In this document: positions 5,286-54,297 of the stretch, in pieces
How positions within the stretch are numbered: the first letter of the stretch is position 1
Layout of the letters: every line of letters starts with the position of its first letter
Source: Alphaproteobacteria bacterium
GTDB lineage: Bacteria; Pseudomonadota; Alphaproteobacteria; Bin65
Direction: 5' to 3'
Assembly: GCA_021776685.1 (NCBI GenBank)
Contig: JAJFFJ010000033.1
Location: 1-62,143 of the forward strand
DNA length: 62,143 bases
Notes under the pieces: generated by a model
The model's input: the letters and a program-made list of their open reading frames with translations, nothing else
The model's database searches: none
Told to the model about the DNA's origin: nothing
Made by a program: the position numbers and the translations under genes

Positions 5286-6035
5286 TCAGATGACTTTCGC
5301 TTCGTTCTGCAGCTTGTCGATCAGCTCCGCCACGGTCTCGACCTTGACGCCGCCTTCGCGCTTTTCGGGCTCGACCACGCTGACCGTCTCCAGCCGCGGC
5401 GTCACGTCCACGCCCAGGTCCGCCGGGGCCATCTGGTCGATGGGCTTTTTCTTGGCCTTCATGATATTGGGCAGCGAGGCATAGCGCGGCTCGTTCAGGC
5501 GCAGGTCGGTAGTGATCACGGCCGGCAGGCTGATCTTGATGGTCTCAAGGCCGCCATCCACTTCACGCACAACTTCCAGGCTATCGCCGTTGGCGGTCAG
5601 CTTCGAGGCGAAGGTGCCCTGGGGCCAGCCAAGGAGAGCCGCCAGCATCTGACCGGTCTGGTTGGCGTCGTCGTCGATCGCCTGCTTGCCCAGGATCACC
5701 ATGTCCGGGCTTTCCTTGTCGACGATCGCTTTCATTAGCTTGGCAACGGCCAACGGCTCGAGCACGTCGTCAGTCAGCACATGGATGCCCCGGTCGGCGC
5801 CCATGGCCAGTGCGGTGCGGATGGTCTCCTGGCACTGTTGCACGCCCAATGAAATCGCGATGACTTCCGTGGCCGTGCCGGCTTCCTTCAGGCGCACCGC
5901 TTCTTCGATGCCAATTTCATCGAAGGGGTTCATGGACATTTTGACGTTGGCGGTCTCAACGCCGGTGCCGTCAGACTTGACCCGCACCTTGACGTTGTAA
6001 TCGACCACGCGTTTGACCGCGACGAGTAGCTTCAT
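5286..6035 (-). CDS. etfB: Electron transfer flavoprotein beta subunit
   Basis: A 249-residue ETF beta subunit starting at ATG 6035 ([20 protein letters not shown]). It shows the conserved [17 protein letters not shown] and AMGADRGIH segments, and [17 protein letters not shown] with the AMP-contacting residues. It is the first gene of the etfB-etfA-hbd operon, with a 218-bp upstream region before the convergently oriented 3' end of the MDR gene. In many alphaproteobacteria this gene directly follows a cobalamin adenosyltransferase gene; here that gene lies about 7.3 kb away (see findings). Confidence 0.97.
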
Positions 6036-6253
6036 GTTTGTCCCGTGGGATTGCGGCCGGATCAGCTGGGGGTCAGTCCCCGTGTCTGCCTCGGCTCAGG
6101 TTTCTCCCAATGGCCGGAAAACCGCAGAATTTGCGGCGTCCAGCATTTTACTGCAGTGCAACATATTTGTTTCGCAATTCCAGAGTCAATCAGCGCTGGC
6201 GGGACGCGCGGTCGCAGCAGATCCGCGACGTCCCGGGCATTGCCGGCGTGCCG

Positions 6254-7264
6254 TCAGTCGGGATCAGGCGCGACCCGGATCATCCGCTTGCCCACATTGT
6301 CGCCGGCCAGCAGGCCGATGAGACCCCGGGGCGCTTGCTCCAGCCCCTCCAGCACATCCTCGACAACCTTGATCTGACCGGCCGCGTGCATCGCCGCCAG
6401 GTCCGCAATGGCCTTGTCGTTGTCGTTATAGAAGTCGGTGACGATAAAGCCTTCCATGCGGAGACGCTTGAAGACGATCACCCCCGGCAGACCGCGTGGG
6501 CTGGCCATTTCCGTGGTGTCATACTGGGAGATTGCGCCACAGCAGACCACACGGCCCCGCTCCGCCATATTGAAGAGCGCGGCCTCCAGAATGTCGGCGC
6601 CGACATTGTCGAAGTAGACGTTGACGCCGCCGGGTGCCAGCTCGGCAATCCGCTTGCGCACATGCTCGCCCTTGTAGTCGATACAGGCGTCGAAGCCGAG
6701 TTCGTCGGTGACGAAGGCGCACTTCTCCGGGCCGCCTGCGATGCCGATGGCGGTGCAGTCCTTCGCTTTGGCGATCTGACCCACATACTGGCCGACGGAG
6801 CCGGCGGCCGCAGAGACCAGGACGGTCTCGCCCGCTTCCGGCCGGCCCACGGTCATCAGGCCGTGCCAGGCAGTCAGTCCGGCGATACCGAGGATGGAGA
6901 TGAAATGGCTCAAGGGGCGGTAATCATGGGGCAGCTTCACCACCCGCCGGCCGAGATGCACGGAATAATCCTGCCAACCGACCTCGCAGGCTACGATGTC
7001 GCCCACCGCGACCCCTTCGGCCTTCGACTCGACCACCTGGCCGACGCCATACCCTTCCATCACGCTGCCGCCGGTCATCTCCTTGCGGTAGGTGGCGCCC
7101 TGCATCCAGGCGCGGTTGGCTGCGTCGATGGAGATGAGCAGGGTGCGCACCAGGATCTCGCCATCGCCGGGCTCCGGCAAAGGCCCGTCGCGCAGCTCAT
7201 AGTGGCTTTCCTCAAGCGCGCCCTTGGGTTGTTCCAGTAACAAAATCTGGCGATTGGTGGTCAT
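6254..7264 (-). CDS. NADP-dependent, zinc-independent MDR oxidoreductase
   Basis: A 336-residue medium-chain reductase of the prostaglandin reductase/leukotriene B4 dehydrogenase/CurA group. The N-terminal GroES-like part (MEGYGVGQVVES) is followed by a Rossmann part with VLVSAAAGSVGQYVGQIAK and then NVYFDNVGADILEAAL and VVCCGAISQY. The structural and catalytic zinc ligands of alcohol dehydrogenases are absent, as expected for enoyl or alkenal double-bond reductases using NADPH. ATG at 7264 is divergent from the dodecin gene. The physiological substrate is not deducible. Confidence 0.92.
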   Translation of the reverse strand: MTTNRQILLLEQPKGALEESHYELRDGPLPEPGDGEILVRTLLISIDAANRAWMQGATYRKEMTGGSVMEGYGVGQVVESKAEGVAVGDIVACEVGWQDYSVHLGRRVVKLPHDYRPLSHFISILGIAGLTAWHGLMTVGRPEAGETVLVSAAAGSVGQYVGQIAKAKDCTAIGIAGGPEKCAFVTDELGFDACIDYKGEHVRKRIAELAPGGVNVYFDNVGADILEAALFNMAERGRVVCCGAISQYDTTEMASPRGLPGVIVFKRLRMEGFIVTDFYNDNDKAIADLAAMHAAGQIKVVEDVLEGLEQAPRGLIGLLAGDNVGKRMIRVAPDPD

Positions 7265-7412
7265 CGGTTCCTCCCTGTGCGTGGCGCTTCCTATGGCAGC
7301 AAACCGGCGGCGGGCGCAAGCGAACGTGGACTCTCTCCCCCAAAAGGCGCACCGTCACGGCAGGCGGTCAGCGTTCCGCCGGTCGGGGCGCGCCGCCTTT
7401 GGGAGAAGCGCC

Positions 7413-7622
7413 ATGAGCGTCTATAAAATCGTAGAACTGGTCGGCACCCATCCGGAGTCGTGGGAGAAAGCGGCGGAAGCCGCTGTGAACCGCGCCGCCG
7501 AATCCCTGCGCGACCTGCGCATCGCGTCGGTCAGCGATCTCGATATGCAGATCGAGGACGGCAAGGTCGTCGCCTACCGCGCCAAGGTAAAACTGTCATT
7601 CCGCTATGAAGGCGGCGCCTAG
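7413..7622 (+). CDS. Dodecin family flavin-binding protein
   Basis: A 69-residue protein with the dodecin pattern: MSVYKIVELVG at the start, the helix SWEKAAEAAVNRAAESLRDL, then a three-stranded sheet with IEDGKVVAYRAKVKLSFRYEG. Dodecins assemble into hollow dodecamers that store or buffer flavins or CoA. I use ATG 7413, preceded by GGGAGAAG; an upstream in-frame extension to 7224 has no family match. It is divergent from the MDR gene. Confidence 0.95.
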   Translation: MSVYKIVELVGTHPESWEKAAEAAVNRAAESLRDLRIASVSDLDMQIEDGKVVAYRAKVKLSFRYEGGA

Positions 7623-7776
7623 CCAAAATTAGGCGTAAGGCGTAGGAAATCCGCCGGTCTGCCGCGCCTGTCCGGCCGGCGGAGGGCGTTGGTACGCGCC
7701 GTCATCGCTGATCGCCTATTGCCGCAATCGCCCGCCATTCCTATTGTTGTCGCTTCAGAAAAGAAGGATCAGTGCC

Positions 7777-8412
7777 ATGCCGAATGTTGACTGGTGGTTC
7801 AAGGGACCGTCGATCCAGACCTGTAACTGTGATTGGGGCTGTCCCTGCCAGTTTAATGCCTTGCCAACCCACGGCGATTGCCGGGCGGTGACCGCAGTGA
7901 AGGTGGACGAGGGCCATTTTGGCGACGTTGACCTGGCGGGCGCCAAATGGGTCGGCATGTTCGCCTGGCCGAAGGCAATTCACGAAGGCAATGGCGAGGC
8001 TTTCCTGATCATGGACAGCGGCACCTCGGACGCCCAGCGCGAGGCACTGTTCACAATCCTGAAAGGCGAAGAAACCGAACCGGGCGCGACCATCTTCAAC
8101 GTGCTGGCAGCCACCTTCACCGAGTTCCATCCGCCCCAGTTCCTGCCGATCGAGTTCGACTTCGATCTTGAGCGCCGCCACGCCCGCGTGATGGTCGATG
8201 GCCTCGTCGAGGCATCCACCGAGCCGATCAAGAATCCGATTACCGGCGAGGAGCATTACGCCACCGTCCGCCTGCCCCACGGTTTTGAGTACCTGGAAGC
8301 GGAATATGCCAGCGGCAATGCCAGGGCCACCGGTCCCATCCCGCAGGACTGGTCCCAGGCCCACGCCCACCTGAACATCATGGAGCTGACTCCCTCCGGC
8401 CCGAAGATGTAG
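7777..8412 (+). CDS. DUF1326 protein, copy 1
   Basis: A 211-residue protein of the uncharacterised DUF1326 family. A cysteine cluster near the N-terminus (C16-x-C18-x3-C22-x-C24, then His33 and C35 in THGDC) looks like a soft-metal or redox site, but no function is established to my knowledge. The rest is beta-rich and acidic with no membrane segment or signal peptide. ATG 7777 has a good RBS (AGAAGGA at 7762-7768); a 12-residue upstream extension is unlikely. A paralogue on the opposite strand (11703-12344) and a DUF2182 membrane protein (8974-9786) are close by; DUF1326 and DUF2182 genes are often neighbours in proteobacteria. Confidence 0.92.
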   Translation: MPNVDWWFKGPSIQTCNCDWGCPCQFNALPTHGDCRAVTAVKVDEGHFGDVDLAGAKWVGMFAWPKAIHEGNGEAFLIMDSGTSDAQREALFTILKGEETEPGATIFNVLAATFTEFHPPQFLPIEFDFDLERRHARVMVDGLVEASTEPIKNPITGEEHYATVRLPHGFEYLEAEYASGNARATGPIPQDWSQAHAHLNIMELTPSGPKM

Positions 8413-8466
8413 GCCGCCTGCGGGCATTTCCGTCCTGATGCCATTTTTCTTCGAGATATCCTGACA

Positions 8467-8781
8467 ATGATTCTCCGCGTACTTCGGGTAACCGTTCATG
8501 ACGGAAAGACGGCGGAATTTGAGGAGTTCAGTAGGAAAATCGCTCTGCCTTTGGTGAAGCGCTATGACGGCCTGCAATCCGTGGTTGTTGGCAAACCCCG
8601 CGCGGCGGCGCCGGCGACCTTCTGTATTGCAATGGTGTGGGAAAGCATTGATGCCCTGAAGGAGTTTGCCGGCGATAACTGGACGGAAGCGCTTGTCGAG
8701 CCGGAGGAAGAGCATCTGGTTGCGTCGATAGATATCGAACACTACGACCTGCTTGCGGCGGCTGGCGGATTGGACCTCTGA
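8467..8781 (+). CDS. Small ABM/dimeric alpha-beta barrel protein
   Basis: A 104-residue protein with the ferredoxin-like beta-alpha-beta pattern of the antibiotic-biosynthesis-monooxygenase (ABM) group: ILRVLRVTVHDGKTAEFEEF, a central strand with SVVVGKPR, AMVWESIDALKEFAG, and a C-terminal strand with the H/Y residues IEHYDL. Such proteins dimerise and may be monooxygenases, heme-binding proteins or sensors. It lies 54 bp behind the DUF1326 gene on the same strand and may be co-transcribed. No specific substrate can be named. Confidence 0.75.
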   Translation: MILRVLRVTVHDGKTAEFEEFSRKIALPLVKRYDGLQSVVVGKPRAAAPATFCIAMVWESIDALKEFAGDNWTEALVEPEEEHLVASIDIEHYDLLAAAGGLDL

Positions 8782-8973
8782 AACAGCGGCACCTGATCAC
8801 TGCCGGTTGGCCTGGGCTGCATCCATCAACGCACCGCCCCCGGGGCAAACGGACCCTGCTGTCAGGATCACGGGACCCGGCGGGCCAAATCCAGCCAGAC
8901 AATGCGCAACCGAACCTGCATCACTGACATTGAGGCCGATTGGGGCCGTAGAAATGTGATCCAAGGGCGAGCC

Positions 8974-9786
8974 TCAGGCGCTCGCCATCACCCAGATACC
9001 GCCGGTCAGGAACAATCCGCCCGTGATCCGTGCGAACCACTGGCCGTGGGGGGCCAGCTTTTCGACCAGAACGAAGATCGCGAGGCCGGCAATCCAGAAA
9101 AGGTTCATGATGCCGCCGGCGAACAGCAGCGCCATTAGGAACCAGCAGCAGCCGATGCAGTAAAGGCCGTGCTTCAGCCCGATGCGGAGCGCGCCCATCC
9201 GGCCCTTGCGGAAATTGCGGGACAGATATTCCGCGGGCGTCCGGCAGTGGCGCAGGCAGATGTCCTTGATGGGTGAGAGCTGATAGGCGCCTGCCGCCAG
9301 CAGCAGCCCGCCGGAGAGCCAGGGATTGAGGCTCCACATCAGCATCGCATGCATCAGCCCGGCTTGCTCCATCCCCCACTGCAATACGGTTGCCGCCAGG
9401 CTGAAGCCCAGCCAGGCGATGAGATAGCCCAGGCCGAAGATGGCTGTCGGCACCGCCGTGCCTTCCATCTGGCCCTTCTTTTGCGCGTGCCGGGTGACGC
9501 GGGCGTAGAGCAGGATCATCGGCGCGGCCGACGGCACCATCATGGCCACCATCATCACCCACCACATGACGAGCATGACCAGCCAGTAGTCCAGGCCCCA
9601 GCCCGCATTCGCGTGCGGCGCCACCGGTGGCGGAAACTGCCACGTGGACATGGCGCGCACACTCATGCCGGTGCCAGCGCCATCCAGCACGAACAGCCAG
9701 GCGAGCACGGCGATCAACGCGAGGCCGATGCCGACGATCCAGCGGTCGCGGCGGAGCAGTTCTTCTGTGGCGGAGGTGTCTTCCAT
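8974..9786 (-). CDS. DUF2182 integral membrane protein (predicted metal-binding)
   Basis: A 270-residue multi-pass protein, about six or seven transmembrane helices by eye. Family features are WWVMMVAMMVPSAAPM, the cytosolic-loop motif CLRHCRTPAEY, and GLYCIGCCWFLMALLF, giving five clustered cysteines plus Met-rich helices. This fits the annotation of the family as a predicted metal-binding membrane protein, whose function is not established. I prefer ATG 9786; an upstream TTG at 9807 would add seven residues. It is divergent from the cyclase-TPR gene and sits between two DUF1326 genes. Confidence 0.9.
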   Translation of the reverse strand: MEDTSATEELLRRDRWIVGIGLALIAVLAWLFVLDGAGTGMSVRAMSTWQFPPPVAPHANAGWGLDYWLVMLVMWWVMMVAMMVPSAAPMILLYARVTRHAQKKGQMEGTAVPTAIFGLGYLIAWLGFSLAATVLQWGMEQAGLMHAMLMWSLNPWLSGGLLLAAGAYQLSPIKDICLRHCRTPAEYLSRNFRKGRMGALRIGLKHGLYCIGCCWFLMALLFAGGIMNLFWIAGLAIFVLVEKLAPHGQWFARITGGLFLTGGIWVMASA

Positions 9787-9878
9787 CGGTCTCGTCTGAT
9801 ACGTCAATCTGGTCCGCTGTGGCCAGGGTTTCCCACGGCCATGCGGTTGCTATAGTACTGCGGGATGAAGGGTCTGCA

Positions 9879-11654
9879 ATGAACGATCAGCCGGTTGAGC
9901 GGCGGCTTTCCGCGATTCTCGCAGCAGATGTTGTTGGCTATTCGCGCCTGATGGGGGCGGATGAAGCCGGCACGCTTGCGCGGCTCAAGGCTGCGCGGCG
10001 CGAGGTGACTGACGCCCAGATCGAGAGCTTCGGCGGCCGGATCGTGAAAACCACTGGTGACGGCATGCTGGTGGAGTTTTCCAGCGCCGTCGCGGCGGTC
10101 GAGTGTGGTGTTGCGGTTCAGACGGCGATGTCTGGCAGGGAGCTTGAGCTGCCTGCGGATGACCGCCTGCGGTTTCGTATTGGCGTCAATATGGGCGACA
10201 TCATCATCGATGGTGATGACATCTTCGGTGATGGCGTCAATGTTGCTGCCCGCATTGAGGCAATCGCGGAGCCTGGGGGCGTGAGCATTTCGGGCGCGCT
10301 GTGGGACCAGGTGTCCGGCCGCATCAACGCCGGCTTCGTGGACGGCGGCATCCATCAGGTGAAGAATATCGACAGGCCCATTCAGGTCTGGCGATGGACC
10401 CCGGACGCCAACGCTGAACGTCACGCCGCCCCAGCGAAAATCAGCCAGATTTCTCCGGCAGAGCCAGATGTGCCATCGATCGCCGTCCTGCCCTTCGACA
10501 ATTTGAGCGGCGACCCGGACCAAGAATTTTTCGCCGACGGTCTCGCGGAAGACATCATCACGGCTTTGTCCAAGGTGCGCGGCCTGTTCGTCATCGCCCG
10601 CAGTTCGACCTTCGTATACAAGGATCAGGCGGTCGATATTCGCAAGGTGGCCGCAGATCTGGGGGTGCGCTACGTGCTGGAAGGCAGCGTCCGCAAAGGT
10701 GGCGAGCGCTTGCGCATTACCGCGCAGCTCATCGAAGCAGAATCCGGCAGTCACATTTGGGCCGAGCGCTATGACCGCATCGCGGCCGACGTGTTCGACG
10801 TCCAGGACGAGATGACCAAGGAGATCGTCGTCGCTCTGCGTGGTGAACTGACCGAAGGCGAAACCGCGCTGATGATTGGTGGCGGGACCAAAAGTCTTGA
10901 GGCGTGGAGTTATGGCGTAGAGGCCAACAAGCTGCTTGACCGCTTCACGGCTGCCGAGACCAAAAACGCCCGTGAACTGGCGCAAAAGGCGCTGGCTATC
11001 GACCCAGGTTATGCATTCGCCTGGGCGATTCTGGCGACCTGCTATTGGTACGAAGGCCGCCTCAAGGTGATCGGCGCCACGGGCCCGCTGATCGAAGCGA
11101 CACGCGAAAACCTTGACCGTGCCCTTGAACTGGACCCGAACCACCCGGCCGCTTTGGGCGTCAAGGCGCTGTCATGGTTGCCGCTCGGGCAGTGGGAAGA
11201 CGCAGTCGCGACCGCGGCGGAAGGTGTTCGAACGAATCCGGGAAGCGCGGATTCTCGGGGGTATTTGGGCTTTGCGCTGGCGAGTGCGGGAAGGCCGGAA
11301 GAAGCAATCGAGGCCTTCCGGGATGCGGCCCGGCTGAATCCTCATCATCCGATCTGGTATTTTGGCCTGTCGGCCCGCGCGCTGGAGGCAGTTGGCCGGT
11401 TTGACGATGCGATGGCGCAGTTGAGGCTGGCCCTAAAGCGGGAAGCTGACAATTTTCCAGCACACCTGCAGATCGCCAGCCTCGCCGCGCGCATGGGCGA
11501 CCGCGAAGCGAGCAAGGCTTCCGCGAGCTTTGTCATGCGCACAGTGCCCGATTTCAATTTGGAAACGGCGCGAACCTGGCTGGTGACAAAGCCAGGACCG
11601 TTCGTTGACGGATTTATCGAGGGCTTACGCCTGGCTGGCATCCCGGAAGGCTGA
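9879..11654 (+). CDS. Class III adenylate/guanylate cyclase with TolB-N-like and TPR domains
   Basis: A 591-residue cytosolic protein. Residues 1-185 are a class III nucleotide cyclase domain: AILAADVVGYSRLM with the first metal Asp, KTTGDGMLVEF with the second, and NVAARIEAIAEPGG with the conserved Asn and Arg. Residues about 205-330 form the TolB-N-like segment common in these proteins (IAVLPFDNLSGDPDQEFFADGLAEDI). Residues about 370-580 are TPR repeats. It should make cAMP or cGMP; substrate preference is not clear. ATG 9879 is used; upstream codons in frame lack family similarity. The architecture is common in rhizobia and relatives. It converges with DUF1326 copy 2. Confidence 0.92.
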   Translation: MNDQPVERRLSAILAADVVGYSRLMGADEAGTLARLKAARREVTDAQIESFGGRIVKTTGDGMLVEFSSAVAAVECGVAVQTAMSGRELELPADDRLRFRIGVNMGDIIIDGDDIFGDGVNVAARIEAIAEPGGVSISGALWDQVSGRINAGFVDGGIHQVKNIDRPIQVWRWTPDANAERHAAPAKISQISPAEPDVPSIAVLPFDNLSGDPDQEFFADGLAEDIITALSKVRGLFVIARSSTFVYKDQAVDIRKVAADLGVRYVLEGSVRKGGERLRITAQLIEAESGSHIWAERYDRIAADVFDVQDEMTKEIVVALRGELTEGETALMIGGGTKSLEAWSYGVEANKLLDRFTAAETKNARELAQKALAIDPGYAFAWAILATCYWYEGRLKVIGATGPLIEATRENLDRALELDPNHPAALGVKALSWLPLGQWEDAVATAAEGVRTNPGSADSRGYLGFALASAGRPEEAIEAFRDAARLNPHHPIWYFGLSARALEAVGRFDDAMAQLRLALKREADNFPAHLQIASLAARMGDREASKASASFVMRTVPDFNLETARTWLVTKPGPFVDGFIEGLRLAGIPEG

Positions 11655-11682
11655 AGAAGTCTCTGACCCTCCGGGAATGCCA
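11637..11682. terminator. Candidate hairpin between convergent genes
   Basis: An imperfect inverted repeat (GGCATCCCGGAAGG against CCTCCGGGAATGCC, allowing one bulge) overlaps the end of the cyclase gene and the 48-bp gap to the convergent DUF1326 gene. There is no T-run on either side, so it is only a weak candidate for a shared transcription end. Confidence 0.3.
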
Positions 11683-11702
11683 AACGCGCTTCAGGTAAGA
11701 AT

Positions 11703-12344
11703 CTAGGCGCCGCGCGGATTGACGATGCCGTGGTTGTTCAGATGAAGGTGGGCGAACTGGCCATAGGCATTTTCCCAGGACAGCTCGATGGGCCCCTGGG
11801 TCTTTGCCGTGCCACTACCCATTTCGGCGACTTCATACTCAAACCCGCCAACCAGATCGATTCGCGCGCGATGTTCTTCGCCGCTCATCGGGTTCTTGAT
11901 CGGCTCCCCAGCGGTTTCGATCAGACCGTCCACTTTGACATGGCCGACGCGCCCTTCCACATCGACGCCGATGTCGATCGACTTGAAGACTGGGTCGTGC
12001 ACGGTCGTCATCGTGGACGCGAAGACGTTCCACATGGTGGCAAACGGGTCTGTGTCCTGGCCCGTGAGGATTGCGAGCAGCGCGTTGCGTTGCGCGTCGT
12101 CCGCGTTTTCATCAACCACGGCGAACACCTCGCCATTCCCCTCATGAATGGCCCCCGGCCATTTGAGCACGGCCACTGCGGTCAACCCATCCAGATTGAC
12201 GTCGCCATAGTGGCCCTTTTTGATGACAAAACCGGCCACCGCCTGGCAGTCGCCGTGGGTCGGCAGCGCATTGAACTGGCATGGGCAGCCATAGTCGCAG
12301 TTGCACGTGACGAACTCGTCGCCCTGGATTTCCCATGGTGTCAT
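11703..12344 (-). CDS. DUF1326 protein, copy 2
   Basis: A 213-residue paralogue of the protein at 7777-8412. It keeps the same cysteine cluster (C14-x-C16-x3-C20-x-C22 and C33) in an almost identical context, and the shared GEPIKNPMSGEEH and FEYEVAEMGSG segments near the C-terminus. ATG 12344 is chosen because GGAGGG lies about eight bases upstream; a start seven codons earlier would swallow this RBS. It is transcribed towards the cyclase-TPR gene and divergent from the cyclase-family hydrolase at 12506. The function is unknown. Confidence 0.92.
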   Translation of the reverse strand: MTPWEIQGDEFVTCNCDYGCPCQFNALPTHGDCQAVAGFVIKKGHYGDVNLDGLTAVAVLKWPGAIHEGNGEVFAVVDENADDAQRNALLAILTGQDTDPFATMWNVFASTMTTVHDPVFKSIDIGVDVEGRVGHVKVDGLIETAGEPIKNPMSGEEHRARIDLVGGFEYEVAEMGSGTAKTQGPIELSWENAYGQFAHLHLNNHGIVNPRGA

Positions 12345-12505
12345 TGATTGTCCCTCCTGTTTCACCGCCCTGAAATTTGCGCGGCGCCGACTCTTGCGGC
12401 CGGAACGGAGAATATAGCGGAATCCCGCACAAACGGGTGCACTTTTGGCAGATGCCCGCTAGGCTTTCCGCGCAACACTGGGTTCAAACCATCGAGAGAT
12501 TCGCC

Positions 12506-13282
12506 ATGGCTCGCCAGATCATCGACCTGTCGATCTGCATAGAAAACGAGATTATTTCCGACCCTGTGCCCTTCAATCCGCAGGTGCAGTATTTCGACCA
12601 TGAGATGACCGCCGGCCAGATGGCGCAATTCTTTCCGGGCCTGAAAAAAGACGACTTGCCGGACGGGGAAGGCTGGGCGATCGAGCGGATCGAACTGATC
12701 ACCCACAACGGCACCCACCTGGATGCGCCCTATCATTTCGCGTCGACCATGAACCAGGGCGAGCGGGCAATCACCATCGACGAGGTGCCCCTGGAATGGT
12801 GCATGGGGCCGGGGGTGAAGCTGGATTTCCGCCATTTCGATGACGGCTATGTGGTGACGGAGGACGATGTGGAAGCGGAATTGAAGCGCATCGGCCACGA
12901 CCTCCAGCCCATGGAGATCGTTGTGGTCAACACCCGTGCGGGCGAGGCCTATGGCGGCGACGGTTATGTGGATGCGGGCTGCGGCATGGGCCGGGAGGCG
13001 ACCCTCTATCTGCTGGAACGCGGTGTGCGGGTGACCGGCACCGACGCCTGGTCATGGGACGCACCCTTCAGCCATACGGCGGAGAAATGGGAGGAAAGCC
13101 ACGACCCCTCCATCATCTGGGAAGGTCATCGCGCCAGCCGGGAGATCGGCTATTGCCACCTGGAGAAGTTGCACAATCTGGAAGTGCTGCCCGGCGATGG
13201 CTTCCAGGTCATCTGCCTGCCCGTGAAGATCAAGGGGGCGTCCGCGGGTTGGACCCGCGCGGTCGCGGTGATCGAGGACTAG
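12506..13282 (+). CDS. Cyclase-family (kynurenine formamidase-like) metal-dependent hydrolase
   Basis: A 258-residue protein of the cyclase/arylformamidase family. The metal-binding signature HNGTHLDAPYHF is visible at about residues 69-80, and a further conserved segment GCGMGREATLYLLERGVRVTGTDAWSWD lies in the second half. Family members hydrolyse N-formylkynurenine, isatin or related amides; this substrate is not known. ATG 12506 has GAGAGA upstream. Longer in-frame starts (from 12377) run into the promoter region shared with DUF1326 copy 2 and are not used. Confidence 0.9.
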   Translation: MARQIIDLSICIENEIISDPVPFNPQVQYFDHEMTAGQMAQFFPGLKKDDLPDGEGWAIERIELITHNGTHLDAPYHFASTMNQGERAITIDEVPLEWCMGPGVKLDFRHFDDGYVVTEDDVEAELKRIGHDLQPMEIVVVNTRAGEAYGGDGYVDAGCGMGREATLYLLERGVRVTGTDAWSWDAPFSHTAEKWEESHDPSIIWEGHRASREIGYCHLEKLHNLEVLPGDGFQVICLPVKIKGASAGWTRAVAVIED

Positions 13283-45627: not shown

Positions 45628-45882
45628 AATAAACTATCCCCAGGAACGTGGATAACTCGCGGCATTACTTAATACGCTGCTTGAGACCTTAACCATATTT
45701 GCCAAAAATTAAGTGCCAGTGCCTCAGAATATCGGTGTTTTGAGGCGACTCTAGCACGTGCGTCCATAGAGAACCGGTCAACCATACCGGTGGGCGACCT
45801 GCCGCTTGCGTCGCGGCATCGTCGCCAGCCGGACTACGCCGACTCCCTGCCGTCCGTTCGATCGGACTGCAAATCGGGCCGC

Positions 45883-48800
45883 GTGAAGCTGTGCCCGAAA
45901 TTGGGCCGGAACTTTTATCAGACAATATTGCTGAGATTTGCGCTGACGGCGCTGTTCTGCCTGGCCGTTGGTTTGCCGCGTGACGCCGTCGCCCAGTCCG
46001 TACCGTACACCCCCGGAAAAAAGCTGCCCGACGCCGACAAGGCAAAGAAGCCTGCCGGCAAGACCAAGAAGCCGCCACGTCGCAAGGCGCGCCAGGTGGA
46101 GGCGGCGCCACCCGCTGGATTTGAAAAGCTGCTGAAGCCCCAGCGCACACTGGTGGATCTGTTTCATTCAAACCGGCGCATTGGCCAGACCTTCGCAGTC
46201 TACAAACCGGGTTTGATGCGATTTGAAAAACCGGCGGCCATCATCAAACTGATCGGTATCCGCAAAAAGCATGTCGCCGCCGTTACCAAGGCCTTCAGTG
46301 GTTGGCTCAAGACCAACGTGGACCAGCTCTGCAGTCAGACCTATCGGCAGAAAGCCTGCGGTGATCTTTCGCCTAGTGTCGCTGGCATCATTTTCAATGA
46401 AGCCCGGCTGAAGGTGACGGTCTTCGTCAATACGGGGCTGCTGAAGGCGCAGGACAAGTGGCGCAGCAAGTTCCTGCGCTCTCCCAGCAAGAATGTGAGT
46501 TTTCTCTCACAGTTTGATGGGTCCCTAGCCGGCCAGAGTCAGACCGCCACTTCGCGGCTGGATTCCAACCTTCGGATGCTCAACCTGTTGAGTTGGCGGG
46601 ACTTCCGGCTGCGCAGCCAGACCAACACGTCACCCAAAGATGGCATCCAGGTCGAAACATTTGCAGCCGAGTGGGACCGGCGGGGTTTCGCCGCCCGGGC
46701 CGGTCTGATCCGCTCTACCGGGTCCCTGCTGTTGCCGCAGGTGACGCTTTATGGCGGCCATGTGGGAACGTCGGTCGATACCCGTATTGACCTTGATCAG
46801 GCCTTCGGTTCGCAATTGTCGATCTTCCTGCGGCGCCAGGCGATTGTCGAAGTCATCCGCGATGGTCGCGTGCTATCTGCGCGGTTCTATCCGTCGGGCA
46901 ATCAGTTGCTGGATACCCGAAATCTGCCATCGGGTGCCTACAACGTCACCCTGCGGATTCGCGAGACGGATGGCGCTGTGCGCGAGGAGACCCGCTTCTT
47001 TTCGAAGAGCTCCCAAATTCCGCCCAAGGACCTGCCGCTGATATTCGTGGAAGGCGGTGTCATCGGGCGGGTGCGCGACTCGGGCGTACCGGAACGCAGC
47101 GACATTCCCTACATCAACATCGGCGGCCGCCTGCGGGTGCGGGATAACCTGGCTCTGGGCGCCCAATTCTCCGCAACGGACGGTGAAGGCGCGGGCGAGG
47201 TCAATCTGTTCTTCCTGAGCCGATACCTGCGCTTCAATTTCTCGGCCGTTGGCACCAGTCGAGGTGACTGGGGCGTCGGCGCGGGCATCTCGGGCAACTA
47301 CAAGGGCATCAACGGCGGCATCAATGCGCGGTATGTGCGGGGACCAAAAGACCGGGTCATCAACCCGACCTTTCCCAAGACCTTCCGCTTCATCGGCGAC
47401 CGCGCGTTGCAGGTCACCGGCAGTATTTCCTACCGCTACCGCGACATCGACTTCGGTGTGTCCGCATCAGTCACGGATTCTCCGGTATCCGGTCTCAGCT
47501 GGACGGTCAGCCCCAAGGTGACGGTGCCCTTGTGGCGCAAGCGCGAGCACAACCTCTCCTTTGTGGGCAATGCGTCCGCGGGAAATCGCGACATCCAGAT
47601 CCTCGGCAAGCTGGTCTATCGCTGGCGGCGGCCGAAATATTCGGTGGCGGCAGAGGCGGGCGCGCGATATCGCCGGTCAAGTGACGGCTCATCCAGCGTT
47701 AGTGACGTGGCGACCCTGCGGGGTACCTACAACCTGCCGGACTGGCGCGGGCACAGCACAACGACCCGGGCCGAGGCCCGCCGGGACAACAACCGAACGC
47801 AGTTTGGCGCGGGCGCCCGCACCACCGGGCCCCTGGGCCGCTATTCGGTCTCGGCAAACCATTCGCGGGGCGGCAGTAGCTCCAACACCAGCTATGCCGC
47901 CACCCTTTCCGTGGGCCTGGCGCTTGACCGCAAGGGTGTCGCCGTGGGTGGCCGGTCGCGCACAGAATCAGCCATCATCGTCAAGATTCGCGGCGCCGAC
48001 AGCCAGTCGAAATTCCGGGTGTTGGTGGACGGCCAGTCCCGGCAGATTTTCACCGGCGACACCACCAAGCCGATCTTCCTCCGGCCTTATAAGAAATACC
48101 GCATCGCGATCCGGCCGCTGGTGGTCAACCGGGAGAAATCCTTCGCCAACGTCGATACGGGTCAACGCGAAGTCATCCTTTATCCTGGCACCGTGCGGAC
48201 CATCGAATGGCGTGTGGTGCAGGTCTATGTGGTCTTTGGCCGGGCGCTGGCACCGGGTGGCGCCCCCATCGGCAATGCCGAAATCAAGGGCGTCAATGGC
48301 GTCGCGGAGACCGGACCCAAGGGGTATTTCCAGGCCGAGATCAAGTCGACCACGCGGCGGCTGCGCTTCATCGCCGGCAAGGGCCGGGAATGTGTGGTGG
48401 CGCTGCCCAGGCTGAAGGCGAAGAACGGGTTCGCCCGGATCGGCGATCTGGTTTGTGGCCTGAAGCAGGCGAGCACCTCTCCACGTCTGCCGCCGGTCGC
48501 GGCCAAAAAAACGCCGGCAGCTGGTGGCGGGACATCCAGTCTCAAACTTGCCCAGAACTACCGCGCCGTCAGAGGTTTTCGCCTGGGACAAGGACGCGGC
48601 CAGAACCGTGGCCAGAACCGTGGCCAGAACCGTGGCGCAGGTCGCGCCTCGGCCCCGCGGCGGCCGTCTGTCGCCAGGCCGCAAGCAGCCGTCAAAAGCG
48701 CCCGCGAACTCGAGGCCGCCCATCGGCCAGCCGCCGGCAAGGGCAAGCGGCTCCGCCGGCGACGCAGCTATTGGATACAGGTGGGCTCCCACCGGGCGCG

Positions 48801-49203
48801 ATCGGCGGCAAGGCGGCGTGAGGCCGAGGTGCGCCCGGCAATAAACCGTTTGATGGCCAGGGCGCCCCTGGCCGGCAAGGTGCTGCCGGGGCGGTCCCGC
48901 AACGCCAAGAAGAGATACTACAAGGTCGTGTTCGGCCCCTTGTCGAACCGGCAACACGCAGTACGGCTTTGCCGTGCGCTCAGGAAAACACGCATTGGCT
49001 GTCTGGTGACCCGGCGGACCGGTCCGGCACTTGCCAAACGTCAGCGTGGTGCCTTGAGCAATCGGCAGCCGGCGCGGCGCGCAGTTTCCCGCGCGGCGTC
49101 CACCCGAGGCCCGTCAGACCGGCGGCGTATGAAAGCCAAACCAGGCGACGCACCTGGTTTGCCGATCAGCACGTCGCCGGGATTGAAGGGTCTGGGGAAA
49201 TGA
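45883..49203 (+). CDS. Usher-like outer-membrane protein with C-terminal SPOR domain
   Basis: A 1106-residue secreted protein. Signal peptide to about residue 38 (LLRFALTALFCLAVGL to AVAQ). A basic linker and an N-terminal domain precede a long beta-strand-rich barrel region (about 230-690), with usher-like features such as SIFLRRQAIVEVIRDGRVLSARFYPSG, NLPSGAYNVTLRIRETDG and PLIFVEGGVIGRVRDSG. Carboxypeptidase-like folds follow (APGGAPIGNAEIKGVNGV). Then come a GQNR repeat and a SPOR domain (about 962-1046: SYWIQVGS to YYKVVFGPLSNRQHAVRLCRAL). The pattern fits the alternative (CS1/TcfC, EcpC-like) usher group. GTG 45883 gives a normal signal peptide; GTG 45790 would place it at residue 48. 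Confidence 0.72.
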   Translation: MKLCPKLGRNFYQTILLRFALTALFCLAVGLPRDAVAQSVPYTPGKKLPDADKAKKPAGKTKKPPRRKARQVEAAPPAGFEKLLKPQRTLVDLFHSNRRIGQTFAVYKPGLMRFEKPAAIIKLIGIRKKHVAAVTKAFSGWLKTNVDQLCSQTYRQKACGDLSPSVAGIIFNEARLKVTVFVNTGLLKAQDKWRSKFLRSPSKNVSFLSQFDGSLAGQSQTATSRLDSNLRMLNLLSWRDFRLRSQTNTSPKDGIQVETFAAEWDRRGFAARAGLIRSTGSLLLPQVTLYGGHVGTSVDTRIDLDQAFGSQLSIFLRRQAIVEVIRDGRVLSARFYPSGNQLLDTRNLPSGAYNVTLRIRETDGAVREETRFFSKSSQIPPKDLPLIFVEGGVIGRVRDSGVPERSDIPYINIGGRLRVRDNLALGAQFSATDGEGAGEVNLFFLSRYLRFNFSAVGTSRGDWGVGAGISGNYKGINGGINARYVRGPKDRVINPTFPKTFRFIGDRALQVTGSISYRYRDIDFGVSASVTDSPVSGLSWTVSPKVTVPLWRKREHNLSFVGNASAGNRDIQILGKLVYRWRRPKYSVAAEAGARYRRSSDGSSSVSDVATLRGTYNLPDWRGHSTTTRAEARRDNNRTQFGAGARTTGPLGRYSVSANHSRGGSSSNTSYAATLSVGLALDRKGVAVGGRSRTESAIIVKIRGADSQSKFRVLVDGQSRQIFTGDTTKPIFLRPYKKYRIAIRPLVVNREKSFANVDTGQREVILYPGTVRTIEWRVVQVYVVFGRALAPGGAPIGNAEIKGVNGVAETGPKGYFQAEIKSTTRRLRFIAGKGRECVVALPRLKAKNGFARIGDLVCGLKQASTSPRLPPVAAKKTPAAGGGTSSLKLAQNYRAVRGFRLGQGRGQNRGQNRGQNRGAGRASAPRRPSVARPQAAVKSARELEAAHRPAAGKGKRLRRRRSYWIQVGSHRARSAARRREAEVRPAINRLMARAPLAGKVLPGRSRNAKKRYYKVVFGPLSNRQHAVRLCRALRKTRIGCLVTRRTGPALAKRQRGALSNRQPARRAVSRAASTRGPSDRRRMKAKPGDAPGLPISTSPGLKGLGK
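48598..48633 (+). repeat. Three exact 12-bp tandem repeats in the usher gene
   Basis: GGCCAGAACCGT is repeated three times without change and encodes GQNR x3, in the disordered linker before the SPOR domain. Exact repetition suggests recent slippage or length variation between strains. Confidence 0.85.
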
Positions 49204-49310: not shown

Positions 49311-50003
49311 CTAGAATGTAAGCCGCTCGGTCTGGGTGCCGACCTGCATGAGATATTGCACCGGTCCGCGTCCGCGCAGCTTGATGCGCACCGTGGTGCC
49401 GGGGTAAAGCCGCCGTGCCGGCAGGGCCGCGCAGCGTTTGCTGCCGCGTGGGCACTGCTTGCCTTCCAGCAGCAGGGCGTTGGTGTTGCCGTTGTTGGTG
49501 ACCACGAGGTTGCGACCCTCCCGTGTGCCGGTCACGTTGGCGCGTGCCTTGGCCGGCCGCTGGATGACCAGCAGGTCGTAGCCGACAACGATCTTTACCG
49601 CATTCCGCTTGGATTTGATCTTGCCGACCACCGGCTTGATCGTGACCCGATAGATCCGGTCACTGCCGTCGGGCGCGGACAGGGAAGCAAAACGCACAAT
49701 GCGCCGCTGGCCCGGTTCCAGGATCATGCGCAGGGGCGACACCAGCAGGCCGTGCTGGCCGGGATCGACAATGCGCACCCGCGCCTCGTTGCTTTTGCCC
49801 GGGTTCATGATCTGCGATGGCTCAATCACGATATACATGCGCGCGCGGCCGCGGTTGAGTACCTCGATATCCGCTCGGCGTTTGGCCGGAGAAACAAAGT
49901 CGACAATCACCTGGCTGATGACCATATCGGCGGTGGCCGGCGCGGGAGCCAAGGTGGCGAGCGGGAAAAACAGGGCAGGGACAAGCAGGCGTTTGGCAAG
50001 CAT
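49311..50003 (-). CDS. PapD-like periplasmic pilus chaperone
   Basis: A 230-residue secreted protein with a signal peptide to about residue 26 (LLVPALFFPLATLAPAPATA). Two Ig-like domains follow. Chaperone-like features are ADIEVLNRGRARMYIVIEPSQI, GLLVSPLRMILEPGQRRIVRF (the edge-strand region before the inter-domain hinge) and DGSDRIYRVTIKPV. The fit is best to the alternative (EcpB/CfaA-type) chaperones. It converges with the usher-like gene, 108 bp apart, so it needs its own promoter, unusual for such loci. Two cysteines (CPRGSKRC) occur near the C-terminus. ATG 50003 is chosen from the signal peptide; the frame further up crosses the tRNA. Confidence 0.78.
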   Translation of the reverse strand: MLAKRLLVPALFFPLATLAPAPATADMVISQVIVDFVSPAKRRADIEVLNRGRARMYIVIEPSQIMNPGKSNEARVRIVDPGQHGLLVSPLRMILEPGQRRIVRFASLSAPDGSDRIYRVTIKPVVGKIKSKRNAVKIVVGYDLLVIQRPAKARANVTGTREGRNLVVTNNGNTNALLLEGKQCPRGSKRCAALPARRLYPGTTVRIKLRGRGPVQYLMQVGTQTERLTF

Positions 50004-50239
50004 TGGCAGAACAGGGTCCTTCAGGTCTTTGGCCGCGTCAGGTTTAGATGGGCCAGGCCGTCTGTAGGCAGGGATTATAGCGAGGTTAGGGCGAAGCCAT
50101 TGACGAATTATTAACCATGATCGCCCGGGTGGCGGAGCGGTGCAAGATACAGCCGCCTGCGGCGAGAATTTTGTCCACCGCCGCTTGACCGCCGCCGCCG
50201 CGCCACTATCATCCGCCCCTCGCGTGCGTACGGCCCGGT

Positions 50240-50326
50240 GCCCCTGTGGCGGAATTGGTAGACGCGCTGGATTCAAAATCCAGTTCCGGCAACGGAGTGG
50301 GAGTTCGACTCTCCCCGGGGGCACCA
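50240..50326 (+). tRNA. tRNA-Leu (anticodon CAA)
   Basis: An 87-nt class II tRNA with the CCA end encoded. Acceptor stem GCCCCTG (50240-50246) pairs with CGGGGGC (50316-50322), discriminator A at 50323, CCA at 50324-50326. The anticodon arm is CTGGA-TTCAAAA-TCCAG, giving CAA (reads UUG). The long variable arm and the T-arm GAGTTCGACTCTC are present. Confidence 0.97.
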
Positions 50327-50637
50327 ATTTCGGCCGGACGCAGGCGCGCTCACGTCGCTTACAATGTCGCTTACAACGTCGAAAGCAACGTCGGCCCGCC
50401 GGAAGGCTCTATCTGTTCTTCGTTGGTTGGTTCAACTGATTGGACCGCGTTGCCGCGTGGATCAGCAAATAAGCCTTTCACCCGGCGCGGCAATGGACCA
50501 AAGGCACCGTCATAATTTCGGGTAAAGAATGCATCACGATCAACTACTGACGTGAGAAGGTTGTTTATTTCGAGCGTCGTTCGGTCAACAATGCGCAGGG
50601 ATATAATCGACAAGCCCGAAAAAAACGGAGCAGTCGA
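50327..50637. other. 311-bp region downstream of tRNA-Leu
   Basis: Between tRNA-Leu and the Slam-like gene. It begins with three 12-bp repeats (GTCGCTTACAAT, GTCGCTTACAAC, GTCGAAAGCAAC at 50354-50389) and is less GC-rich than its surroundings. An 80-codon reverse frame (50371-50613) has no family match and no RBS I trust. No integrase, no duplicate of the tRNA 3' end within this window. The promoter of the downstream gene should be here. Confidence 0.5.
50354..50389 (+). repeat. Three 12-bp tandem repeats 3' of tRNA-Leu
   Basis: Two units differ in the last base only and the third is degenerate. They lie 28 bp behind the tRNA CCA end. Role unknown. Confidence 0.7.
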
Positions 50638-52089
50638 GTGGGGAGAATTAGGGGGGGTGGTTTTCCACTCCAGTACATTCGCACTTATGGTGCGGTGTTG
50701 ATTGGCATTTATTGCCTGATCGGCCGTGATGGCGCGTCAGCGCAGGGCATCACGCGCACGATTGAGCGACCCTCGCAAGATATCGAGAAGCGCCGGCGCA
50801 CGGTCGATTCCGTCCGGAAGTCTCGCAAACAGGTCCTCCTGCGCGGCGCGAAGGTTACCTTCGAACAGGTGGTTGCCAATCCCCGGGATCTGAACCTCGC
50901 TTTTCGTTACGCGCAGCAGCAGATCCGGGCCGGCGATCTGTTGGGCGCCTCAGGTACGCTGGAACGAATTCTTATTGCCAATGCCAATCTGCACAGGGTT
51001 CGTGCGGTCTATGCGATTGTTCTGTTTCGCCTGAAGAATTTCATCGAGGCAGAACGGGAACTGGCCACTGTCCTGCGCGCTAAAATTCCGGACTCGCTCC
51101 GGCGCCAGCTGCAGCCTTTTGCCGAGACCGCCAAGCGCCGGCAGAAGGACACGCGTTTCACCGCCCTGTTCAGCTTCGGATATGTCTGGGACAGCAACCG
51201 CAACGCGTCGGCGTCGAAGGAAGATCTGACCCGCCTGTTTGGTCCGACGGCCACCAATCCAACAGGCGCCGGCGGCGCGCCTGACAACGCATTCCAGGTC
51301 ATTGTCAGCCTTGGCGGTGAGCATGACGTCAGCGTGCAAAAACGCCACCGCCTCGTCGGCTCAGTTGCCTACTACTACCAGAACCAGACCAAACTGCATT
51401 TTTTTGACACCCAGTCGGTGGCCGTTCAAGGCGGCGGCGTCTACGACGGCGGGGCCTGGGAATTGCAGGCGCTTCTGTTTTATCGGTTCCAGAATCTTTC
51501 TCAGCAGCCGCTTGCCCATGTGGTGGGCGGTCGGGTGGACTATATTCGCCCGCTAACCCGCAAGACCCGCCTGACTGCCTTCATGCAGCTCGAGGCGCAG
51601 AGTTTCAGGAAACTGCGTGAAGTGCCCATCCAGCATCTGCGGACCGGGCCGGAATATCGCGCCGGCCTCGATCTTGTGCATTTGTGGAGAGGTGATCTTC
51701 AGATTGTTGGCGGCGCAACAGCGATCCGGAAAGCCGCAACAGGGTTTTTCAACGACTACACGGGCGTTTTGCTCACCGGGCGCGCTGTCTATCTTTTTGG
51801 CGCGGGGCTGTTTGTGTTGGGTCAGGCCTCTTGGGAGTACGATCTCTATGATGAAGCCGATGGCTTCGTCAGTACCCGGCGGCGGCAGGATCATATTGTA
51901 CGTGTGGTCGGCACAATTGGCGTGCCGGTGACAGCGATGGTTCCGAGCAGCGTCGTCTTGCCCAGATATTTAAGGGGCACGGTGTTCACCCTTACGGGGG
52001 AAATGTACCGGGCCTTCTCCAACGTGCGGGTTTTTGCCTACACGAATTTCCGGATTGGGGCAGCCGTCACTTTCCGATTCGATTTCTAG
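50638..52089 (+). CDS. Slam/DUF560-like outer-membrane protein (TPR plus beta-barrel)
   Basis: A 483-residue protein. A signal peptide (to about SAQG, residue 37) is followed by a helical TPR-like region (about 60-170: NLAFRYAQQQIRAGDLLGASGTLERIL, AVYAIVLFRLKNFIEAERELATVL) and a C-terminal barrel of about 300 residues that starts with ALFSFGYVWDSNRNASAS and ends in Phe (AAVTFRFDF). This is the layout of surface lipoprotein assembly modulators (type XI secretion OMPs), which move barrel-tailed cargo through the outer membrane. The start is GTG 50638, with GGAG seven bases upstream. A 44-bp gap separates it from the FecR gene, its likely partner. Confidence 0.78.
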   Translation: MGRIRGGGFPLQYIRTYGAVLIGIYCLIGRDGASAQGITRTIERPSQDIEKRRRTVDSVRKSRKQVLLRGAKVTFEQVVANPRDLNLAFRYAQQQIRAGDLLGASGTLERILIANANLHRVRAVYAIVLFRLKNFIEAERELATVLRAKIPDSLRRQLQPFAETAKRRQKDTRFTALFSFGYVWDSNRNASASKEDLTRLFGPTATNPTGAGGAPDNAFQVIVSLGGEHDVSVQKRHRLVGSVAYYYQNQTKLHFFDTQSVAVQGGGVYDGGAWELQALLFYRFQNLSQQPLAHVVGGRVDYIRPLTRKTRLTAFMQLEAQSFRKLREVPIQHLRTGPEYRAGLDLVHLWRGDLQIVGGATAIRKAATGFFNDYTGVLLTGRAVYLFGAGLFVLGQASWEYDLYDEADGFVSTRRRQDHIVRVVGTIGVPVTAMVPSSVVLPRYLRGTVFTLTGEMYRAFSNVRVFAYTNFRIGAAVTFRFDF

Positions 52090-52133
52090 GGCGCGGCGTA
52101 TCGCGGCGCGGCCTGCAAAAAGAGAGCCGAAAC

Positions 52134-53483
52134 ATGATCAAGCATCACATTTTCGCTATTGGCCACATTCCCGCAATTGGATTGTCGCTGGCTCTTGCAA
52201 CCGTATCTTTTTCCAATCCCGCCGCCGCCGCTCCAGGTGACCGGGCCGGCATCATTGCAGTCGCCAGGGGCGCCGTTACTCGTGTTGCGTTCAATGGCAG
52301 CCGGCGCGGCGTCGGCCAGAATGTCACGACCGGCCAGTCGGTTCTGCTTGGAGATGTGATCGCGACCGGCCGGCAAGGCCGGCTACAAATTCTGCTGCTT
52401 GATCAGACGATGTTCACGATCGGCCCGAACTCGCGGATGACGATTGACGAGTTTGTCTACAATCCACGAACCGCCAACGGCAAGATCACCGCAACAGTCA
52501 CGCGCGGGTTTTTCCGCTTCATATCGGGCAAGATCGCGGCGAAATCGCCGAACCGGGTAAAGATCCATACTCCGGTTGCGACCTTGTCGATCCGCGGAAC
52601 GTCAATCTTCGGCTTCATCCGGCCGGTCCAGCGGGCCTACCTGCCGCGACGCAGTCTCGCTCAGGCCGGCCGAGGCGGGGTCGTCGCCACGTTCGGGCTG
52701 CTTGGCTCCAGCGGGTTAGGTGAAAAGCCGCCGTCTTTCTCCGCGACCAGCTCGGATGGATCGCAAAGCGTGACAATTTCCAAAGCTGGTGTGGCATTCA
52801 ATGTCAATGGTGCCGGCGCCTTTCAGCCGCCCCGGAAAATCCACATCGGTAATTTCAATTCGCTGACCCGCCAGGTTGTACGGAACAGCAGGTCCTCCGG
52901 CAGTGGTTCAGGGGGCGGTGGCAATGCGGTGGCCCGATCCGGTGCTTCTAAGGATGCCGGTATTAAAAGTGCACGTAACGCGATTCGGTCTTTGAAGGCC
53001 AGCAACCTCAATACGTTCGCAACCAACAGGTCGGCGCAAACCACCAGCACCCTCACATCAGGCGTCACCAAATACAGTCATATTTTCGCCATCAGCAGCG
53101 GGTCCATCTCGGGCACCACGATTACGACCCTGGTGCCGGTTACCGGGACCGGCACCGCCACAAACACTGCAACGTGGACCGTCAATTTCGGCAGTCGCAC
53201 AATGGGACTGGTGACGCGGACCACGAACCTGTCGACGCCGGCAACCGGCGGTCCCTTTGACAGCGGCGTGATTACGGTTGGACCTTTCAGCGTCGCCGGC
53301 CAGAGCCCGGGCAGCAAAGTGGTCCTGAGTGGAGCGCTGAATGGAGCGACCTTCGACACCTTTCGAACCACAACATTTTCGAACACGGCGGCGGGCGTGG
53401 CGCGCAATTTTACGACAACACTGACAATTGACGACAGATTAGGAAATGTTCTGGAAGGAACAAGTTCGGCGACTCTCAAGTAG
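52134..53483 (+). CDS. Secreted FecR-domain protein with a TbpB-like C-terminal barrel
   Basis: A 449-residue protein. Signal peptide to about residue 34 (no lipobox). A FecR domain occupies about 45-165: GQSVLLGDVIATGRQGRLQILLLDQTMFTIGPNSRMTIDEFVYNP, with IHTPVATLSIRGTSIFG. A Ser/Gly-rich linker follows (about 255-280). The C-terminal 120 residues (from VPVTGTGTATNTATWTVNFGSRTM to the end) have the alternating strand pattern of the small barrel of Slam-dependent proteins (TbpB handle, HphA-like). No FecI sigma factor or TonB receptor is near, so it is not a classical FecR anti-sigma factor. It probably is cargo of the preceding Slam-like protein (inference). Confidence 0.78.
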   Translation: MIKHHIFAIGHIPAIGLSLALATVSFSNPAAAAPGDRAGIIAVARGAVTRVAFNGSRRGVGQNVTTGQSVLLGDVIATGRQGRLQILLLDQTMFTIGPNSRMTIDEFVYNPRTANGKITATVTRGFFRFISGKIAAKSPNRVKIHTPVATLSIRGTSIFGFIRPVQRAYLPRRSLAQAGRGGVVATFGLLGSSGLGEKPPSFSATSSDGSQSVTISKAGVAFNVNGAGAFQPPRKIHIGNFNSLTRQVVRNSRSSGSGSGGGGNAVARSGASKDAGIKSARNAIRSLKASNLNTFATNRSAQTTSTLTSGVTKYSHIFAISSGSISGTTITTLVPVTGTGTATNTATWTVNFGSRTMGLVTRTTNLSTPATGGPFDSGVITVGPFSVAGQSPGSKVVLSGALNGATFDTFRTTTFSNTAAGVARNFTTTLTIDDRLGNVLEGTSSATLK

Positions 53484-53760: not shown

Positions 53761-54297
53761 ATGTCTCGTACAACTCTCGCTGCCCGAATGGGCGGCGCAC
53801 TCGCTGCTGCCATGGTCGCCATCGCGCCGGCTTCGGCCGACAGTTCAAAGCACCAGGTTGCTGCCCATCACGCTGCGGGCGACATCGTCGATGTCGCTGC
53901 CAAGGCGGGCACGTTCAAGACCTTGATCGCAGCGGCTAAGGCCGCGGGCCTGGTCGGCGCGCTCAAGGGCAAGGGGCCGATCACGCTCTTCGCACCCACC
54001 GATGCGGCCTTCGCCAAGCTGCCCAAGGGCACGGTCGCCATGCTGCTGAAGCCGGAGAACAAGGCCAAGCTGCAGGCAATTCTGAAATATCACGTGGTGG
54101 CGGGCAAAGTGCCGTCATCGGCAATCGTCAAGGCCGGCACCGCCAACGCCATGACCCTGCAGGGCAAGACCGTTCGCGCCATGTATGACCCCAAGTCCAA
54201 GTCGGTGTTCGTCAACCGCGCCCGGGTCATCAAGGCCAACGTTAAAGCCTCCAATGGTCTGATCCATGTTATCGACCGGGTGCTGATGCCAAAATAG
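53761..54297 (+). CDS. Secreted fasciclin-domain protein
   Basis: A 178-residue protein with a signal peptide (to about residue 26, PASA-D) and one FAS1 domain (about 40-175): DIVDVAAKAGTFKTLIAAAKAAGL, ITLFAPTDAAFAKLP (H1 motif), YHVVAGKVPSSAIVKAG and NGLIHVIDRVLMP (H2 motif). FAS1 proteins mediate adhesion or surface interactions. It stands alone in a 277-bp gap after the FecR gene and ends in a terminator. Confidence 0.93.
   Translation: MSRTTLAARMGGALAAAMVAIAPASADSSKHQVAAHHAAGDIVDVAAKAGTFKTLIAAAKAAGLVGALKGKGPITLFAPTDAAFAKLPKGTVAMLLKPENKAKLQAILKYHVVAGKVPSSAIVKAGTANAMTLQGKTVRAMYDPKSKSVFVNRARVIKANVKASNGLIHVIDRVLMPK

Follow-up and report, generated by a model that had tools for sequence, protein, structure and literature searches.

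A pair of adjacent genes in the window (the whole 62,143-nucleotide stretch of DNA that was analysed) encodes a Slam-family outer-membrane protein, here called A, and a FecR-domain protein, B, with a tail for which a fold like that of the Slam-cargo barrels is predicted. The two genes recur together across genomes, and a CHASE2 adenylate cyclase goes with them. We propose that they represent an undescribed branch of the Slam (T11SS) proteins, which would deliver or dock a FecR sensor that feeds CHASE2-cAMP signalling, and we give this reading an even chance of being right. Docking, export and the contact with CHASE2 are what we infer from the homology of A, the architecture and predicted fold of B, and the genomic coupling. 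T11SS/Slam proteins are known from Pseudomonadota and export host-interaction lipoproteins and hemophores.

Both reading frames proved open as drawn in the original prediction, with B lying downstream of A on the same strand after a spacing of 44 bp (Table 1). Promoter and terminator scans at the pair stayed at chance level, no CHASE2 gene lies beside it, and a search of viral contigs returned no relatives of B. The window's own genome contains a second A-B pair, on contig C68, with a CHASE2 adenylate cyclase gene adjoining it upstream; CHASE2 is also found on contig C105. We infer that the cyclase partner of the window pair is encoded elsewhere in the genome, on one of these two contigs.

Table 1. 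Positions of the two genes and of their predicted parts within the window.
Feature	Position	Strand	Description
ORF A	50638-52089	+	GTG start, 483 aa; Slam-family (T11SS) outer-membrane protein, FecR-linked branch
Putative signal peptide of A	50638-50745	+	residues 1-36, ...DGASAQ/GITR; read by eye
TPR-like helical region of A	50749-51141	+	residues 38-168; Pfam and AlphaFold2
Predicted 14-strand outer-membrane barrel of A	51151-52083	+	residues 172-482; AlphaFold2 and solved 14-strand barrels
ORF B	52134-53483	+	ATG start, 449 aa; FecR-domain protein, Sec-type leader, predicted C-terminal barrel
Putative signal peptide of B	52134-52232	+	residues 1-33, MIKHHIFAIGHIPAIGLSLALATVSFSNPAAAA; read by eye
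FecR beta domain of B	52248-52838	+	residues 39-235; Pfam core 74-158 = 52353-52607
Predicted C-terminal Slam-cargo-type barrel of B	53058-53480	+	residues 309-449; AlphaFold2 and fold comparison

By sequence homology, A is a member of the Slam superfamily. It had been described as having the Slam layout, and this description held: a signal-like N-terminus leads into helices resembling TPRs, the FGYVWDSNRNAS motif stands where the barrel begins, and the C-terminus (...FRFDF) closes with phenylalanine. The A-family profile aligned with canonical Slams from the TPRs to the C-terminus over 374 columns (hhalign 100%, E 6e-40); the reference consisted of 14 canonical Slams from the same class as the window genome, and controls with shuffled columns reached at most 0.2%. 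In the Pfam search, PF04575 stayed below cut-off in A, with SlipAM at 14.0 bits against a threshold of 22 (E 0.037, profile positions 6-238 of 288), and the PF04575 search of the window's own genome gave nothing above threshold, which we attribute to divergence rather than to absence. Among 38 relatives together with the window A, SlipAM was matched by 20 proteins (E <= 0.1; best 1.6e-9) and the Slam TPR domain (TPR_Slam) also by 20, and one FecR-linked relative of A matched SlipAM at E 8e-14 (52 bits, cut-off 22).

The AlphaFold2 model of A (mean pLDDT 86, low at residues 1-10 and 26-37) combines a helical TPR part with 14 strands, each some 12-16 residues long. The nearest solved barrels in a structure search were OmpG and CymA, both with 14 strands, a likeness that may reflect strand number alone. 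A PDB sequence search with A returned weak TPR matches and nothing else, and a canonical Slam used as the query likewise brought up no solved barrel of this family, so that A could not be compared with a Slam structure directly. In a quick maximum-likelihood tree, 66 FecR-linked proteins and 18 Slams, defined as those without FecR within 1.5 kb, split on one branch (SH-aLRT 96). Judging from this homology, A would move its partner across the outer membrane.

The original prediction further held that B joins a FecR domain to a cargo-like C-terminal barrel, which was borne out at the level of the predicted fold. FecR (PF04773) scored above cut-off (E 9e-8) and was the only domain that Pfam found in B; the barrel models PF01298 and PF08794 gave no match. 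In the AlphaFold2 model (mean pLDDT 73), the FecR domain is followed by a helical linker and a barrel. We found that the FecR domain resembles the cell-surface-signalling domain of PupR (Z 15.6, rmsd 2.7, 141 aligned), while residues 309-449 resemble the C-terminal barrel of factor H binding protein (fHbp; Z 9.8, rmsd 3.2, 117 aligned), NHBA (Z 9.2) and TbpB (Z 8.4), the fHbp score standing a little above the Z of 6.8-7.5 given by unrelated barrels. The tail of B is therefore predicted to fold like these Slam-cargo barrels. As for the eight strands that had been anticipated, the fold is closest to fHbp and seven strands are confident; the eighth would sit in a low-confidence stretch at residues 381-393.

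Profile searches gave a more distant picture of the tail. The B-family profile matched lactoferrin-binding protein B in the PDB (E 0.0084). In profile-profile comparisons, the window-type barrel showed no convincing link to canonical TbpB_B_D cargo barrels (0.8-1.7%) and a weak similarity to the tails of TbpB_B_D type that other FecR partners carry (44-47%, E 2e-4, 47-49 columns). At its other end, B has a cleavable-looking signal peptide in place of a recognisable cytoplasmic anti-sigma part and transmembrane anchor, and no lipobox cysteine was seen by eye in the leader. B is apparently a soluble, Sec-exported protein.

The window-type barrel domain was detected at E < 1e-3 in 45 of 93 FecR partners, 19 of these carriers being loci outside the model-building set, and in none of the reversed sequences. 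A barrel is absent from 30 of the 93 and is thus not required for pairing; the FecR proteins of the C68 pair and of the window's closest relatives have none either. The FecR proteins adjoining A in Paracoccus, Shinella and the class genomes gave TbpB_B_D matches below cut-off (E 2e-4 and weaker), several of which span the full profile. When profiles were compared with profiles, the TbpB_B_D-type tails of FecR partners and the barrels of canonical cargo matched at 97-98% (E 1e-11 to 1e-13). The version encoded on pAMI5 of Paracoccus aminophilus is one with a clear TbpB_B_D barrel. One FecR partner matched the NCBIfam model "Slam-dependent surface lipoprotein" at E 1.3e-9, which is below the cut-off of that model.

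The pairing of A with B exceeds chance. A FecR-seeded scan of GTDB genomes yielded 79 loci, and A was present at 65 of them, within 200 bp at 58, while reversed reading frames, used as a control, gave 0 matches; the usual order is A then B. Seeding with A in the class sample recovered FecR at 23 of 30 loci (1.5 kb each side). These counts confirm the co-occurrence that had been expected. Ten genomes had a FecR gene with no neighbouring A, and 7 of them encoded a strong A at another place. Records of the pair come from Pseudomonadota and from MAGs labelled Omnitrophota, Elusimicrobiota, Nitrospirota and Deltaproteobacteria (Myxococcota), the labels being used as given. The 25 commonest families, which were those listed for the 90 neighbouring proteins, include no TonB receptor or uptake family, no sigma-factor family and no polysaccharide family. 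Among the few other recurrent neighbours were cyclic-nucleotide-binding domains (4/90 proteins) and a beta-eliminating lyase family (4/90).

The third recurrent element is the CHASE2 adenylate cyclase. In the class sample, it was present in every one of the 49 genomes that carry this Slam branch, defined by an A-family match at E <= 1e-40, as compared to 138 of 289 genomes overall (Fisher p 8e-19, with genome size and phylogeny ignored). In contrast, genomes with only other PF04575 proteins (canonical Slams) carried CHASE2 in 6 of 22 cases. Of the 11 genomes of the order, 6 carry the pair, and precisely these 6 have CHASE2. CHASE2 was encoded at 35 of the 79 FecR-seeded loci, and at 25 of the 43 with full flanks; FecR-CHASE2 neighbours without a listed A also exist. 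Cultured species in which the genes for A, B and CHASE2 all adjoin one another include Thalassospira alkalitolerans, Paracoccus aminophilus and Hoeflea poritis. Because the cyclase goes with the pair, it is more likely that B senses or relays a signal towards cAMP than that it is secreted to bind a ligand freely. The functional reading first proposed for B survives in its rejection of an anti-sigma role, while its free ligand-binding module has become less likely. The cyclase was absent from that reading, which is incomplete in this respect.

A related combination is known from Sinorhizobium meliloti, in which the outer-membrane receptor NsrA, a protein ending in a barrel, perceives a plant signal jointly with CyaK, a cyclase of the CHASE2 type (PMC7529298). 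The gene directly upstream of cyaK, annotated FecR, encodes a 1190-aa protein with a FecR domain (E 3e-15) and TPRs. Both systems unite FecR, TPRs, a barrel of the outer membrane and a CHASE2 cyclase in one genetic module; however, NsrA fuses the first three in a single chain, the window copy has no adjacent cyclase, and the A-family HMM did not detect NsrA. The FecR domain of NsrA precedes the TPRs and the barrel in the chain and is probably periplasmic, an arrangement that points to a FecR located in the periplasm. Another FecR gene, SMc02177, adjoins the CHASE2 cyclase gene cyaD1 (SMc02176) and was not needed for signal perception (PMC5498481), which speaks against the signalling model proposed here. 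For Campylobacterota, the part of PMC9239204 considered here describes a cluster of genes for a CHASE2 adenylate cyclase, a phosphodiesterase, a FecR outer-membrane protein and a TPR protein and proposes one pathway for them. By that description the gene combination is the same, but within this part the TPR protein is not called Slam-like and a cargo barrel is not noted.

As compared to the known Slam/T11SS proteins (PF04575, DUF560), A shares the TPR N-terminus, the predicted 14-strand barrel and homology from end to end, and its gene likewise adjoins one for a protein with a C-terminal cargo-type barrel. It differs in forming a separate branch, in its FecR partner, in the coupling to CHASE2 and in having records from more phyla. 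B has a predicted C-terminal barrel in common with Slam cargo (fHbp, TbpB, LbpB, hemophilin) and NHBA, but unlike them it carries an N-terminal FecR beta domain and shows neither a PF01298/PF08794 match nor a lipobox. With the FecR/PupR regulators, it shares the fold of the FecR beta domain, whereas a recognisable anti-sigma domain, a membrane anchor and a sigma-factor partner were not found for B. FecR, CHASE and cyclases go unmentioned in the main text of either T11SS survey (PMC8406197, PMC12282271). The latter counts fHbp and TbpB as established cargo and raises the speculative idea that sensor proteins might reach the surface through T11SS.

In the model that we propose, the window pair would form the outer-membrane half of a Slam-FecR-CHASE2 module. 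B would dock on A via its barrel, and A would deliver B across the outer membrane or display it there. The state of the FecR domain would be read by an inner-membrane adenylate cyclase of the CHASE2 type, which would change cAMP accordingly. A bolder version, which we regard as unlikely, has signalling gated by export: A would set the location of B in the periplasm or at the surface, CHASE2 would read this distribution, and secretion itself would be the sensed event with cAMP as the output. If true, this would be, as far as is known, the first T11SS branch to serve a second-messenger pathway. A separate and widespread branch tied to FecR and CHASE2 would extend the Slam family to other phyla and add a function for the FecR domain beyond the control of sigma factors. 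It would also offer a testable route from surface events to CHASE2 receptors, the inputs of which are, to our knowledge, largely unknown apart from NsrA-CyaK.

The same genes could instead form a relay that involves no export, a possibility that we take seriously while holding it to be the less probable one. Here, A would be an NsrA-like receptor split into genes, and B would remain in the periplasm, its FecR domain signalling to CHASE2 and its barrel, when present, docking under A or plugging it. The fold match of B to PupR-type FecR domains, which act in the periplasm, fits such a relay, as do the FecR-CHASE2 neighbours without a listed A and the pairing of barrel-less FecR proteins with the same type of A. 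NsrA itself provides a precedent, being FecR, TPRs and barrel in one chain adjoining CyaK, with which it perceives a plant signal (PMC7529298). Against the relay, A is homologous to Slams and similarity to NsrA went undetected by the A-family HMM; half of the FecR partners bear the kind of barrel that marks Slam substrates; and the Slam architecture is kept family-wide, suggesting that the translocon function has been retained. The cargo-type barrel and the Slam homology favour surface delivery over a periplasmic relay, whereas the barrel-less partners (30/93 and the same-genome paralogue) and the NsrA fusion favour the relay. We consider it rather improbable that A simply secretes B to serve as an adhesin or binding protein, at the cell surface or in released form, with CHASE2 as a bystander. 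Slam homology combined with a cargo-type barrel would suit plain secretion, the missing lipobox recalls soluble cargo of the hemophilin type, and Lsa33-like FecR-containing surface proteins are a named family. However, a bystander would hardly be expected in 49/49 A-positive genomes (p 8e-19) against 6/22 of those with canonical Slams alone, nor so often adjacent to the pairs, and no TonB receptor or uptake family recurs among the 25 listed.

Two further explanations do without a Slam pair altogether. A TPR region joined to a barrel also fits polysaccharide-export or general porin barrels (PgaA, PelB, EpsL-like); PelB is a structural match to A, and relatives of A gave weak NCBIfam matches to EpsL and PgaA. 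This identity for A is nevertheless very unlikely in view of the end-to-end Slam profile match (E 6e-40), the 14 strands, the SlipAM and TPR_Slam matches in about 20 of 38 proteins each, and the lack of a polysaccharide family among the recurrent neighbours listed. Last, an ordinary FecR anti-sigma system that adjoins a barrel gene by chance would account for the Pfam match and the PupR-like fold of B, but the pairing with A is systematic and we see next to no likelihood in it. We rejected an anti-sigma role of B, since it begins with what looks like a cleavable signal peptide, neither an anti-sigma part for the cytoplasm nor a transmembrane anchor can be recognised in it, and no sigma-factor family occurs among the recurrent families listed for its 90 neighbouring proteins.

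A FecR domain outside anti-sigma control had been put forward as a new use of the domain, which does not hold: such FecR-like domains are already known from the Leptospira Lsa33 and LipL45 models and from the LapA-type retention domain. Within residues 32-158, B shows weak similarity to these proteins by sequence or fold, while their architectures differ from its own.

The genome that contains the window (G000) encodes CHASE2 adenylate cyclases elsewhere, on its contigs C68 and C105. In the second copy of the pair, on C68, the FecR protein has 306 aa and a proline-rich tail and is devoid of a barrel. Around the cyclase on C105, we found neither a Slam-family gene nor a FecR gene within stretch L208, and this cyclase is a candidate partner of the window pair. 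In the window itself, the pair is adjoined upstream by an alternative chaperone-usher locus composed of a TcfC-like usher and a TcfA-like chaperone. The gene immediately 3' of the FecR gene encodes a Fasciclin-domain protein.

Coordinates of the features at the window pair and at the compared loci
Feature	Location	Positions	Strand	Remarks
TcfC-like fimbrial usher	window	45790-49203	+	C-terminal SPOR domain, unusual
TcfA-like chaperone	window	49311-50327	-	strand opposite to usher
Fasciclin-domain protein	window	53761-54297	+	Pfam E 5e-37
Second copy: CHASE2 cyclase, Slam-family gene, barrel-less FecR protein	L032 (G000:C68)	4645-9335		consecutive
CHASE2 cyclase	L208 (G000:C105)	4486-6735
Very large FecR protein	L136 (Aquibium sp. 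ELW1220)	7149-12545		1799-aa open frame
Tail-less FecR protein, stop codon, separate ORF with barrel domain	L089	7836-9122		ORF in frame, 108 aa
One Slam-family gene, then three tandem FecR paralogues	L025 (G010:C202)	7222-10281

An HMM built in this analysis detected two TbpB-type barrel domains in the very large FecR protein of Aquibium sp. ELW1220, which is adjoined by a Slam-family gene and a CHASE2 cyclase. The arrangement at L089 possibly represents a split gene or a sequencing error. Last, NHLP bacteriocin export genes adjoin the FecR-CHASE2 loci on plasmids of Ensifer sp. PDNC004 and Shinella sp. H4-D48 (L047 and L049); at the Ensifer locus, the annotated length of the TPR protein is only ~104 aa.
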